Shown here piece by piece: positions 50,559 through 54,425 of a stretch of DNA of 64,000 bases; position 1 is the stretch's first letter, and every line of letters starts with the position of its first letter. The translations under genes were made by a program, and so were the position numbers. Under the pieces are notes generated by a model that did no database searches, was not told the origin of the DNA, and saw only the letters and a list, made by a program, of their open reading frames with translations. The stretch spans positions 1 through 64,000 of the forward strand of contig NZ_JAZGLW010000002.1 of the NCBI RefSeq assembly GCF_036409155.1. Reading direction: 5' to 3'. Origin of the DNA: Mycobacterium sp. 050128. GTDB lineage: Bacteria > Actinomycetota > Actinomycetes > Mycobacteriales > Mycobacteriaceae.

Positions 50559-50603
50559 TTGCGTCGATTAGCTGATCGAACTATAGTCTGGACACATGTC
50601 CAG
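50559..50603 (+). promoter_or_regulatory. Promoter plus palindromic operator of the GT4-methyltransferase-toroid operon
   Basis: TTGCGT (50559-50564) and TATAGT (50582-50587) are 17 bp apart, a close match to a housekeeping promoter. Immediately after the -10 lies CTGGACA-ca-TGTCCAG (50588-50603), perfect 7-bp arms covering the expected transcription start. A bound dimer would block initiation. The operon starts 86 bp downstream. Confidence 0.65.
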
Positions 50604-50689
50604 TTTGCTGTCACGGGATTCGGGAGCCCGTTGATCGCAATGGATTCGGCGCCCTCCGCGTTCGTTAAACCAGCAAAGAAGAGTTGAGT

Positions 50690-51946
50690 ATGCGAATTGC
50701 CTTGCTGTCCTACCGTAGTAAGACCCATTGCGGCGGGCAGGGCTTCTACATACGACATCTCAGCCACGGTCTGGTGGAACTTGGTCACGATGTCGAAGTG
50801 TTTTCCGGGCAGCCGTATCCGGAATTGCTCGATCCTCGGGTGCGATTGACCGAGGTTCCAAGCCTCGATATGTACCGAGAGCCCGACCCGTTCCGGATCC
50901 CCCGTCCCAGCGAGATACACGACTCGATCGACCTCCGGGAACTTCTGACCGTGTGGACGGCAGGCTTTCCCGAGCCGCGGACTTTCACGCTGCGCGCCGC
51001 GCGCCTGTTGGCCGAGCGCGCATCCGAATTCGACGTCGTCCACGACAACCAGAGTCTGGGAACCGGCCTGTTGACCATTGCCGCCACCGGAATGCCGGTG
51101 GTGGCCACCGTGCACCACCCCATCACCCGTGACCGGGTGCTCGACGTCGCCGCGGCCAAGTGGTGGCGAAAGCCGTTGGTACGCCGCTGGTATGGATTCT
51201 TGGACATGCAGCAACAAGTGGCGCGACAGATCCCGGAGCTCTTGACGGTCTCGTCGTCGTCGGCCGCCGACATCATCTCCGATTTCGGGGTGTTGCCCCA
51301 GCAGCTGCACGTGGTGCCGCTGGGGGTGAACACCGAGCTGTTCAAGCCGGGTTCGGGTCCACGCCAGCCCGGCCGGGTGATCGCGATCGCCAGCGCCGAC
51401 ACCCCGCTGAAGGGCGTCAGTACCCTGCTGCACGCGGTCGCTAAAACTCGGGTGAACCGCGATGTCGAGTTGCGGCTCGTCGCCAAGGTGGAACCTAACG
51501 GGCCCACCCACAAGCTCATCGCAGAACTGGGGATCTCGGACATCGTCCACATCACCAGTGGGCTGACCGACGCCGAGCTGGCCGCCCTGTTCGCCTCGGC
51601 CGAGGTCGCCTGCATACCGTCGCTCTACGAAGGGTTTTCGCTGCCCGCCGTGGAGGCGATGTCGAGTGGGACCCCGATCGTCGCGAGCCGGGTAGGTGCG
51701 CTGCCCGAGGTCCTCGGGACCGACGGCGCCTGCGCCGAGTTGGTACCGCCCGCCGACGTCGACGCGCTGACCCGCGCACTCGGCGAGCTCCTCGACTCGC
51801 CGGAAAAGCGCCGCAGCCTCGGCAAGGCGGGACGGGCGCGCGCCGTCAGCGTGTTCAGCTGGGAAGCCGTCGCCGCCCAGACCGTGCGGATCTATGAGCG
51901 GGCGATTGCACGAAGTGCCCTCACCGAAGGCGAACTGCAATGCTGA
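50690..51946 (+). CDS. GT4-family glycosyltransferase
   Basis: The 418-residue cytoplasmic product has a GT-B fold with MRIALLSYRSKTHCGGQGFYI opening shape and the retaining-GT EX7E motif EGFSLPAVE late in the protein, plus LGVNTELF. It would transfer a sugar from a nucleotide sugar to an unknown acceptor. The ATG is preceded by AAAGAAGAG; a TTG two codons earlier is possible. It overlaps the next gene by 7 bp. It has no M. tuberculosis locus I can name with certainty. Confidence 0.87.
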   Translation: MRIALLSYRSKTHCGGQGFYIRHLSHGLVELGHDVEVFSGQPYPELLDPRVRLTEVPSLDMYREPDPFRIPRPSEIHDSIDLRELLTVWTAGFPEPRTFTLRAARLLAERASEFDVVHDNQSLGTGLLTIAATGMPVVATVHHPITRDRVLDVAAAKWWRKPLVRRWYGFLDMQQQVARQIPELLTVSSSSAADIISDFGVLPQQLHVVPLGVNTELFKPGSGPRQPGRVIAIASADTPLKGVSTLLHAVAKTRVNRDVELRLVAKVEPNGPTHKLIAELGISDIVHITSGLTDAELAALFASAEVACIPSLYEGFSLPAVEAMSSGTPIVASRVGALPEVLGTDGACAELVPPADVDALTRALGELLDSPEKRRSLGKAGRARAVSVFSWEAVAAQTVRIYERAIARSALTEGELQC

Positions 51947-52698
51947 CGGTCGATTTCGATCGGCTCGGCATCGGCCCGTCCAGCAAGGTGATCGACGTGG
52001 GCTGCGGAGCCGGTCGGCATGCGTTCGAGGCGTATCGCCGCGGTGCCGACATCATCGCGTTCGACCGTGACGAGGCCGAGTTGAAGTCCGTGGAAACAAT
52101 TCTTCGCGCGATGGCCGAAAACGGCGAAGCGCCCGCTGCGGCAACGGCGGAGGCGGTCGTCGGCGATGCGTTGAGCTTGCCGTATCCAGACGAGACATTC
52201 GACTGCGTCATCGCATCCGAAATTCTAGAACACGTCACCCAAGACGACGCGGCAATCGCGGAGTTGATCCGGGTGCTCAAAGTCGGTGGCACCCTGGCGG
52301 TCTCGGTGCCCCGCTGGCTTCCCGAACAGGTGTGCTGGCTGCTGTCCGACGAATATCACGCCAACCTGGGCGGCCACATCCGCATCTACCGGGCTAGTGA
52401 GCTGCGGGACAAGATCGCGGCCAATGGCCTGCAATTGACGCATTCGCATCATGCGCATGCACTACATGCACCGTTCTGGTGGCTGAAATGTGCTGTCGGA
52501 GTTGAAAATACCGATCACCCGGCGGTGACCGCCTACCACAAGCTTCTGGTGTGGGACCTTATGCGGCGGCCGAGGCTCACCCGGATCGCGGAGTCGGTGC
52601 TCAACCCGCTGGTGGGCAAGAGCGTGGCGATGTACTTCACCAAGGCGCAGAAGGCGGGAACCGAAGCAACTCTGGGGTATTCAGTTGCGTCGATATAA
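51940..52698 (+). CDS. Class I SAM-dependent methyltransferase
   Basis: The 252-residue product has motif I VIDVGCGAGRHAFEA near residue 17 and CVIASEILEHV, like UbiE/SAM-methyltransferase 11 domains. The ATG lies within the end of the glycosyltransferase gene and its end overlaps the next gene by 14 bp, indicating tight coupling. It likely methylates a sugar or lipid intermediate of the same pathway. The C-terminal ~80 residues contain several His/Trp motifs not in the core fold. Confidence 0.86.
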   Translation: MLTVDFDRLGIGPSSKVIDVGCGAGRHAFEAYRRGADIIAFDRDEAELKSVETILRAMAENGEAPAAATAEAVVGDALSLPYPDETFDCVIASEILEHVTQDDAAIAELIRVLKVGGTLAVSVPRWLPEQVCWLLSDEYHANLGGHIRIYRASELRDKIAANGLQLTHSHHAHALHAPFWWLKCAVGVENTDHPAVTAYHKLLVWDLMRRPRLTRIAESVLNPLVGKSVAMYFTKAQKAGTEATLGYSVASI

Positions 52699-53761
52699 CC
52701 CGCCGGCAGTTCCGGGTGTGTTGAGTCCGGAGCAGTGTCGCCAGACAGCCCTGTCCATCGCCGCCGAGCAGGAGTCATCGGGTGCCATCCCCTGGTTCCA
52801 CGGCGGTCACACCGACCCGTGGGATCACGTCGAATCGGCCATGGCGCTCACCGCGGCCGGATTACTGGAACCGGCCCGAGCCGCCTATGAGTGGAGTCGC
52901 CGTAATCAGCGGCGTGACGGATCCTGGCCTCTCCAATTTCGTTCGGGGACAATCGAAGACGCCAACAGCGATAGCAATTTCTGCGCCTATATCGCCACCG
53001 GCGTCTGGCATTACGTGTCGGTCACCGGTGACATGTCCTTCGCCGCATCGATGTGGCCGGTGGTACACAAGGCCATCGACTTCGTCATCGACCTGCAGGT
53101 CGGCTACGGCGAGATCTGTTGGGCGCGAGGCGAAACGGGACCGGTGCGCGAAGCTCTGCTGACCGGTTGCGCCAGCGTGTATCACAGCATCCGGTGTGCG
53201 TTGGCGCTGGCCGCCCTGGTGGACGATCCGCAACCCGAATGGGAGCTGGCCGTGGGTCGGCTGGGCCATGCGCTGGTCGCGCATCCAGAGGCGTTCACCG
53301 AGAAAGACCGCTACTCGATGGACTGGTACTACCCCATCCTCGGCGGCGCGCTGCGGGGTCCGGGGGCGGCGGCCCGCATCAAGCACCGCTGGGACGACTT
53401 TGTCGTCGACGGCCTTGGCATCCGCTGCGTCGACGATCGGCCGTGGGTGACCGGCGCCGAAACCTGCGAGTTGGTCATGGCGCTCGACGCGATGGGTCAA
53501 CGACCGGTCGCTCACCAGCAATTCGCGGCAATGCAGCACCTTCGTGAAAAAGACGGCTCGTATTGGACGGGCTTGGTATTCGCCGACGGGAAGCGCTGGC
53601 CCGAAGAGCGCACGGCGTGGACGGGCGCGGCGGTGATCTTGGCGGCGGATGCGCTGTCGGACACCACCCCGGGTGCGGGGATCTTCCGCGGCGACGACCT
53701 GCCGCTGGGTCTGCAGACCGACTTCGATTGCGAGTGCGTCGTTACCGGCCCTGGTCGGTAA
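52685..53761 (+). CDS. Alpha/alpha-toroid (prenyltransferase-like) protein of the GT4 operon
   Basis: The 358-residue product has repeated helical segments of an alpha/alpha toroid with motifs [19 protein letters not shown] and PWVTGAETC. Related proteins are commonly labelled prenyltransferase-like or squalene-cyclase-like; none of these activities is established here and the aspartate-rich motifs of prenyltransferases were not confirmed. It could bind or trim a glycan, as toroids of glycoside hydrolases do. TTG is the start used; a GTG 33 bp later is possible. It is convergent with a methyltransferase gene, overlapping by 20 bp. Confidence 0.72.
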
Positions 53762-54425
53762 TTTCGATCGGCTCGCCCACCCGGCCGCCGATGCGTTCGA
53801 GCACCCGCAGCGAGCCGAGCGCGTGGATCTCCCGGAATTGGCCGGAATCTATCGCGCGGCAATAGATGTAATACGGTGGCCGCCCGCCGTCGGTTGGATC
53901 GGGAAACACGTCATGGATGACCAGGGCCCCGCCCACACTTACCCACTTCGCCCATCCGTTGAAGTCCTCGGTGGCGGCGGCCTCGGAGTGGCCACCGTCG
54001 ATGAACAAGAACCGCAGCGGTGACCGCCACCCGCGGGCCACGACCGGAGACTTGCCCACGATGGCGACCACGTGGTCGTCCAGTCCGGCCGCATCGAGCG
54101 TGCGACGAAACGTGGGCAGGGTGTCGAACAGTCCGGTGACCTCGTCGACCAACGAGGCGTCGTGATACTCCCAGCCGGCCTGATGTTCCTCGGAGCCGTG
54201 GTGATGGTCGACCGTGTACAGCACACCGGCCGTCTGCTGTGCCGCTGCACCGAGCAGCAAGGTGGATTTGCCGCAATAGGTACCGATCTCGACACCGACA
54301 CCGCCGTCCAGATACCGCAGCGCCGCGTCATAGAGCGCGCGCCCTTCGTCCTCTGGCATGAAGCCCGTGACCTGCGCGGCCAGCGCGAACAAGCGCTCGG
54401 GTGCACTCGTGTCGGTGTTGCTCAT
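53742..54425 (-). CDS. Class I methyltransferase (CmcI/MTase_24-like)
   Basis: The 227-residue product has [17 protein letters not shown] (SAM site) and [17 protein letters not shown], with acidic residues following that resemble metal-dependent O-methyltransferases. It is in reverse orientation to the GT4 operon but shares 20 bp of its 3' end, a convergent arrangement. Its substrate is probably linked to the adjoining operon, though this rests only on position. Confidence 0.83.

Follow-up and report, generated by a model that had tools for sequence, protein, structure and literature searches.

Conserved operator-like palindrome at the 3-O-methylmannose polysaccharide gene cluster of mycobacteria and two candidate TetR-type regulators

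Introduction

3-O-Methylmannose polysaccharide (MMP) is a sugar polymer with a presumed modulating role in fatty acid metabolism. In this study, the control of its synthesis was considered from a 64,000-nucleotide stretch of Mycobacterium sp. 050128 (contig NZ_JAZGLW010000002.1, positions 1 to 64,000; hereafter, the window), in which a promoter-like sequence and a 16-bp palindrome precede the genes manT, pmeT3, and mmpH, and a fourth gene, meT1, converges on them. According to the available text of PMC9883506, the four-gene MMP cluster is common across nontuberculous mycobacteria, whereas the M. tuberculosis complex and some others are without it, and it was described in M. hassiacum, M. smegmatis, and M. 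avium (locus tags MHAS_04402 to 04405 and MAV_2755 to 2758). In that source, MmpH is an endomannosidase and ManT an alpha-(1->4)-mannosyltransferase (structure 7QSG), Asp47, Asp50, and Glu262 of MmpH and Lys240 and Glu313 of ManT matter for activity, and the 3-O-methyltransferase role of pMeT3 is putative, as it is here. An M. smegmatis mmpH mutant had no MMP, and its growth at 15 C was slower. The main text of PMC9883506 nowhere uses the words promoter, operon, regulator, or transcription.

The second related system is the regulon of the TetR-type protein Rv0767c. In the available text of PMC6593523, a palindromic motif X found at 14 operons was ascribed to an Rv0767c orthologue and also lay near the start codon of the orthologue itself, and at 12 of these operons phytosterol raised gene expression more than 3-fold. 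The accessible parts of two other reports give the Rv0767c motif an e-value of 1.2E-14, in the authors' less significant class (PMC4482099), and describe its sites as GAC- and GTC-enriched (PMC10312376).

The enzymes and the pathway are already known; what this analysis adds is a conserved operator, together with two paralogous TetR genes, tetA and tetB, as candidate regulators. We assign a probability of about 0.9 to the reading that the genes form the known MMP pathway cluster, that the operon is transcribed from one promoter, and that a TetR-type dimer, whose binding is predicted from the sequences, represses it at the palindrome.

Identification of the gene cluster

The proteins were identified by sequence search against solved structures. 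ManT was aligned with 7QSG over residues 1-410 (706.4 bits, E 7.5e-212), and MmpH with 7QSJ, a methylmannose polysaccharide hydrolase, over residues 7-353 (614 bits, E 1e-183). MeT1 matched 6G7D (365.8 bits, E 7.4e-109), for which the entry text gives a methyltransferase domain protein and which we take to be MeT1. No close solved relative of pMeT3 was found in the structure search, the best match being 47 bits. Residues K241 and E314 of ManT and D44, D47, and E259 of MmpH are the counterparts of the published functional residues. Because solved enzymes match three of the proteins, the gene order is the published one, and all five functional residues are kept, the four genes are, judged by their sequences, the known cluster for MMP synthesis and recycling in nontuberculous mycobacteria. 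The orthologous genes stand in the same order as in the available text of PMC9883506, as deduced from the M. hassiacum and M. avium locus tags, and the two clusters share the functional MmpH and ManT residues. The window differs from the published cluster in species, in the cutinase gene that adjoins meT1, and in the lack of tetB. In section 18 of the same source, the M. smegmatis tags of MeT1 (6482) and MmpH (6481) appear to be exchanged when compared with the gene order in the two other species.

The original prediction of a methylated-glycan pathway was thus borne out by the match to the MMP cluster, and the toroid that it had described as of unclear chemistry is MmpH, an alpha-(1->4)-endomannosidase of solved structure (7QSJ). 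Recomputed coordinates also bore out its layout of three overlapping genes and a convergent fourth, with overlaps of 7 bp (manT/pmeT3), 14 bp (pmeT3/mmpH), and 20 bp (mmpH/meT1); the 14-bp overlap arises because TTG was chosen as the mmpH start.

Conservation was assessed in the best 80 of 593 confirmed stretches from a scan of a genome collection, with the genes located by tblastn. The complete four-gene set was present in 74 of the 80 loci, which include Nocardia, Rhodococcus, and Saccharopolyspora. The genes manT, pmeT3, and mmpH were co-oriented in 78 loci, and mmpH and meT1 were convergent in 75, with at most 100 bp from stop to stop in 61 of those 75. Fifty-eight loci were sorted as mycobacterial by name or likeness (two of them, L053 and L059, contrary to their labels), and 57 of these had a readable sequence upstream of manT; among the 22 non-mycobacterial loci, 20 were readable there. 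In the 148 genomes of the genus, mmpH was present in 119.

Conserved palindrome upstream of manT

The palindrome consists of two 7-bp arms around an unpaired CA centre, so that 14 of its 16 bases are symmetric. The best match to CTGGACANNTGTCCAG upstream of manT had 0, 1, and 2 mismatches in 46, 3, and 8 of the 57 readable mycobacterial loci, respectively. Accordingly, a site with at most one mismatch occurred in 49/57 loci, compared with 4/1083 random 400-bp windows from the same loci; the palindrome reported after the -10 box is therefore real, and its conservation at manT is above chance. In 7/57 loci, the left arm reads CCAGACA and the right arm is unchanged, and the identical left-arm variant occurs at some tetB genes.

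The promoter itself had been called clean. The two boxes, the 17-nt spacer, and their positional conservation hold, as TATAGT stands immediately 5' of the best palindrome match in 48/57 mycobacterial loci and a hexamer starting with TTG lies 17 nt upstream of the -10 box in 45/57. However, the word clean does not hold, since TTGCGT agrees with the E. coli -35 consensus at 3/6 positions and a consensus scan did not list the promoter. Because this consensus support is weak, the promoter call rests on conservation.

In the whole 6.73-Mb genome, sites with at most one mismatch were two, at manT and tetA, and a backwards control pattern gave 0. Across the 148 genus genomes, among the matches listed, there were 0 to 6 such sites per genome (control, 0 to 5), with at least one in 144 genomes. 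Since the control gives up to five per genome, single sites elsewhere are not trustworthy without a conserved position. With up to 3 mismatches, the control outnumbered the pattern in the two genomes G002 (181 vs 106) and G025 (89 vs 56), and thus loose matches are meaningless unless their position is conserved. The exact 12-bp core was found at four places in this genome, namely, manT, two in the region of tetA and an aldehyde dehydrogenase gene, and one inside an unrelated open reading frame (ORF). The last, at C4:197083, lies in a 394-aa ORF that resembles a polyprenyl synthase by eye, and was set aside as probably a chance match.

Neither an account of the manT operator nor one of how MMP synthesis is switched on was found in the openly licensed papers searched, outside which most subscription papers lie. 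In the same papers, the exact palindrome sequence and MSMEG_6480, our guess for the tetB tag in M. smegmatis, each gave 0 matches.

Candidate TetR-type regulators

The palindrome binder probably belongs to the small TetR group of tetA (Rv0767c-type) and tetB, which are candidates because members carry the core palindrome at their own start codons. In an alignment, the recognition regions of both contain ATAYTYFSSK.

In most other mycobacterial loci, and likewise in seven from Nocardia, the gene tetB, a paralogue of tetA, adjoins meT1 divergently; in two Rhodococcus loci it lies nearly 8 kb away. Its core palindrome had 0, 1, and 2 mismatches in 24, 14, and 2 of the 40 loci read, and in all 40 a GTG inside the palindrome stood at a frame-compatible distance from the tetB frame, which was read out for L034. 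Among the matches listed, tetB was present in 81/148 genus genomes, in 80 of them at E 8.6e-71 or better; in G109 it is split into two pieces (E about 1e-38, with tetA-like matches beginning at 8e-42). All 81 tetB genomes have mmpH, and the 29 genomes without mmpH gave no tetB match above the tetA level. In 80/81 genomes, tetB lies within 8 kb of mmpH (for G112, with two matches of each gene, the same-contig pair was used), and in G005 the two are on separate contigs. Fisher tests over the 148 genomes, in which shared descent is ignored, gave p 1.5e-12 for tetB vs MMP and p 7e-4 for tetA vs MMP. In G002, a genome in one contig, MMP, an exact manT site, and tetB are present and tetA was not found. 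We regard it as an even chance that tetB, as a dedicated TetR beside meT1, controls MMP synthesis in Mycolicibacterium-type mycobacteria.

The stretches L001-L024, L035, and L039 (26 loci) gave no tetB match, and in 21 of these a cutinase gene stands next to meT1 instead. By their named species, the tetB-less loci belong to Mycobacterium in the narrow sense. This group comprises slow growers, and Mycolicibacter and Mycolicibacillus are slow or intermediate. Loci of the latter two genera (L037, L038, and L047) have tetB; thus, its presence does not simply follow fast versus slow growth. Both arms of the manT palindrome are mismatch-free in 24/25 readable tetB-less loci, which argues that something still binds there.

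The best candidate for this binder is tetA, given that its site is identical to the manT palindrome at 15/16 bases, centre included. In the present genome, tetA is present, the manT site is exact, and tetB was not found. The gene is divergent from the aldehyde dehydrogenase gene, and genes for a P450, an SDR, and a second P450 come after it. The aldehyde dehydrogenase passes the cut-off of the Rv0768 model TIGR04284, and the neighbourhood is presumably the Rv0767c neighbourhood of M. tuberculosis. Among the matches listed, tetA occurs in 140/148 genus genomes; operators were taken from 33 of these 140 (the best-scoring 30 and three others), and GGACA-N2-TGTCC lies on the tetA start in 32 of the 33 genes. 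All 33 loci also have a second core, 120 to 167 bp from the tetA start; in the present genome, it was observed in the divergent region at L084:8160-8171 (G000 C1:2225072), 157 bp from the first.

As far as the available text of PMC6593523 goes, the Rv0767c-type TetR with motif X and tetA have in common a palindrome near their own start codon, and the motif X targets include P450 and aldehyde dehydrogenase genes, both of which stand at the tetA locus here. From these likenesses we infer that motif X is the manT/tetA palindrome. The terms glycosyl, mannos, methyltransferase, and polysaccharide were absent from the main text of that source, whose supplementary operon list lay outside the search.

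A further paralogue of this genome, tetC (C2:312577; L139:4063-4659), is approximately 50% identical to tetA, and its likely start lies in a weaker palindrome, CTGGACGGGTGTCTAG, with 2 mismatches. It is a less likely manT regulator than tetA because 2-mismatch sites were not above the control genome-wide, as checked in two other genomes.

Proposed mechanism and alternative explanations

The gene identities, the conservation of the operator, and the tetA and tetB sites are established at the level of sequence; the transcription start, binding, repression, and inducing ligand belong to the predicted part of the model. The MMP operon is likely TetR-repressed, and tetA may have taken over its control from tetB. 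In the resting state, a TetR dimer would sit over the manT start site and block the promoter. The dimer would be released by a ligand, which, if the tetA locus is a guide, may be a lipid, sterol, or aldehyde; manT, pmeT3, and mmpH would then be expressed together, probably from one promoter, with meT1 transcribed separately. By orthology, MmpH would cleave mature MMP into oligomannosides, ManT would use GDP-mannose to add alpha-(1->4)-mannose to them, pMeT3 would probably 3-O-methylate the added units, and MeT1 would cap the free reducing end by 1-O-methylation. The conserved operator and the two candidates make the control of MMP synthesis testable in M. smegmatis, and suggest that MMP may be connected both with cold adaptation, the phenotype published for the mutant, and with sterol or aldehyde metabolism.

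Several observations weigh against TetR repression of the operon. At manT, no palindrome match with 2 or fewer mismatches occurs in any of the 20 non-mycobacterial loci that were readable, and Nocardia loci have tetB though the palindrome was not found at their manT; some non-mycobacterial loci carry a different palindrome there, e.g., AGAACATGTTCT in two Rhodococcus loci. Among the matches listed, tetA or tetB is present in 118/119 MMP genomes, but tetA is common in the genus as a whole (140/148), occurs in 23 of the 29 genomes without mmpH, and is hence not tied to MMP. In G025, which is 80% complete, mmpH and a 1-mismatch site approximately 2 kb away were found with neither tetA nor tetB at the thresholds used. 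Finally, the palindrome could instead bind an unrelated factor or act in an RNA leader.

The RNA explanation, in which the palindrome is a hairpin or leader signal of the manT transcript and not a DNA operator, survives best among the alternatives and is still improbable. The palindrome covers the predicted start site, and its internal ATG opens a 12-codon ORF in the window and in 23/25 readable tetB-less loci. However, the core also lies at the tetA and tetB promoters, the CCAGACA left arm breaks pairs, and that variant recurs at tetB genes. The ORF showed no convincing coding signal in the tetB-less group, with 16, 18, and 26 non-consensus letters at the three codon positions in 24 sequences chosen for having the 12-codon ORF (L019 and L023 were omitted, and L017 is without upstream sequence). 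In the Mycolicibacter loci L037 and L038, the manT frame itself is open from the palindrome ATG, as tetA and tetB are from their palindrome GTG.

It is very unlikely that the regulator is the TetR gene at 49738-50358, with the palindrome as its site. The gene lies directly 5' of the operon on the same strand, but it was found near the cluster in only 2/80 loci (L001 and L003), against 49/57 for the palindrome, and its recognition region (AAPYRHFTDK) is unlike those of tetA and tetB; it was therefore rejected. The least tenable alternative is the undescribed methylated glycan or glycolipid pathway of the original prediction, for which domain annotation left room (a Pfam search gave nothing for the toroid protein, and no NCBIfam model shown for any of the four proteins exceeded its own cut-off) and which was rejected on the 7QSJ, 7QSG, and 6G7D matches, since orthologues of three of the four proteins are solved and the cluster with its gene order, product, and mmpH deletion phenotype is published (available text of PMC9883506).

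Feature coordinates and minor observations

Table 1. Positions of the features discussed, in the window unless a contig is given
Feature	Position	Strand	Description
-35-like hexamer TTGCGT	50559..50564	+	Sequence and positional conservation; weak by E. coli consensus
-10-like hexamer TATAGT	50582..50587	+	17-nt spacer from the -35 box; positional conservation
Operator-like palindrome CTGGACA-CA-TGTCCAG	50588..50603		Over the predicted transcription start
Possible leaderless 12-codon upstream ORF (MSSLLSRDSGAR)	50596..50634	+	Starts at ATG inside the palindrome; significance uncertain
manT	50690-51946	+	GT4 MMP alpha-(1->4)-mannosyltransferase; coordinates include the stop
pmeT3	51940-52698	+	Putative MMP 3-O-methyltransferase; Methyltransf_11 domain; cluster position as published
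mmpH	52685-53761	+	MMP alpha-(1->4)-endomannosidase, alpha-toroid
meT1	53742-54425	-	MMP 1-O-methyltransferase, convergent with mmpH
tetA	C1:2224288-2224917		TetR gene; site CTGGACACATGTCCAA over the start codon

The coordinates are given in Table 1. Some loci depart from the common layout. In L025, L030, L046, L058, and L071, approximately 1.4 to 2.2 kb of additional DNA separates mmpH from meT1. The Nocardia carnea and N. flavorosea loci L062, L063, and L072 have manT, pmeT3, and mmpH, with no meT1 match in the fetched stretch. The metagenome-assembled genomes of L053 and L059, labelled Bifidobacterium breve and Acidobacteria, contain mycobacterium-like MMP loci whose operator has 2 mismatches, which suggests that these bins are mislabelled or contaminated.

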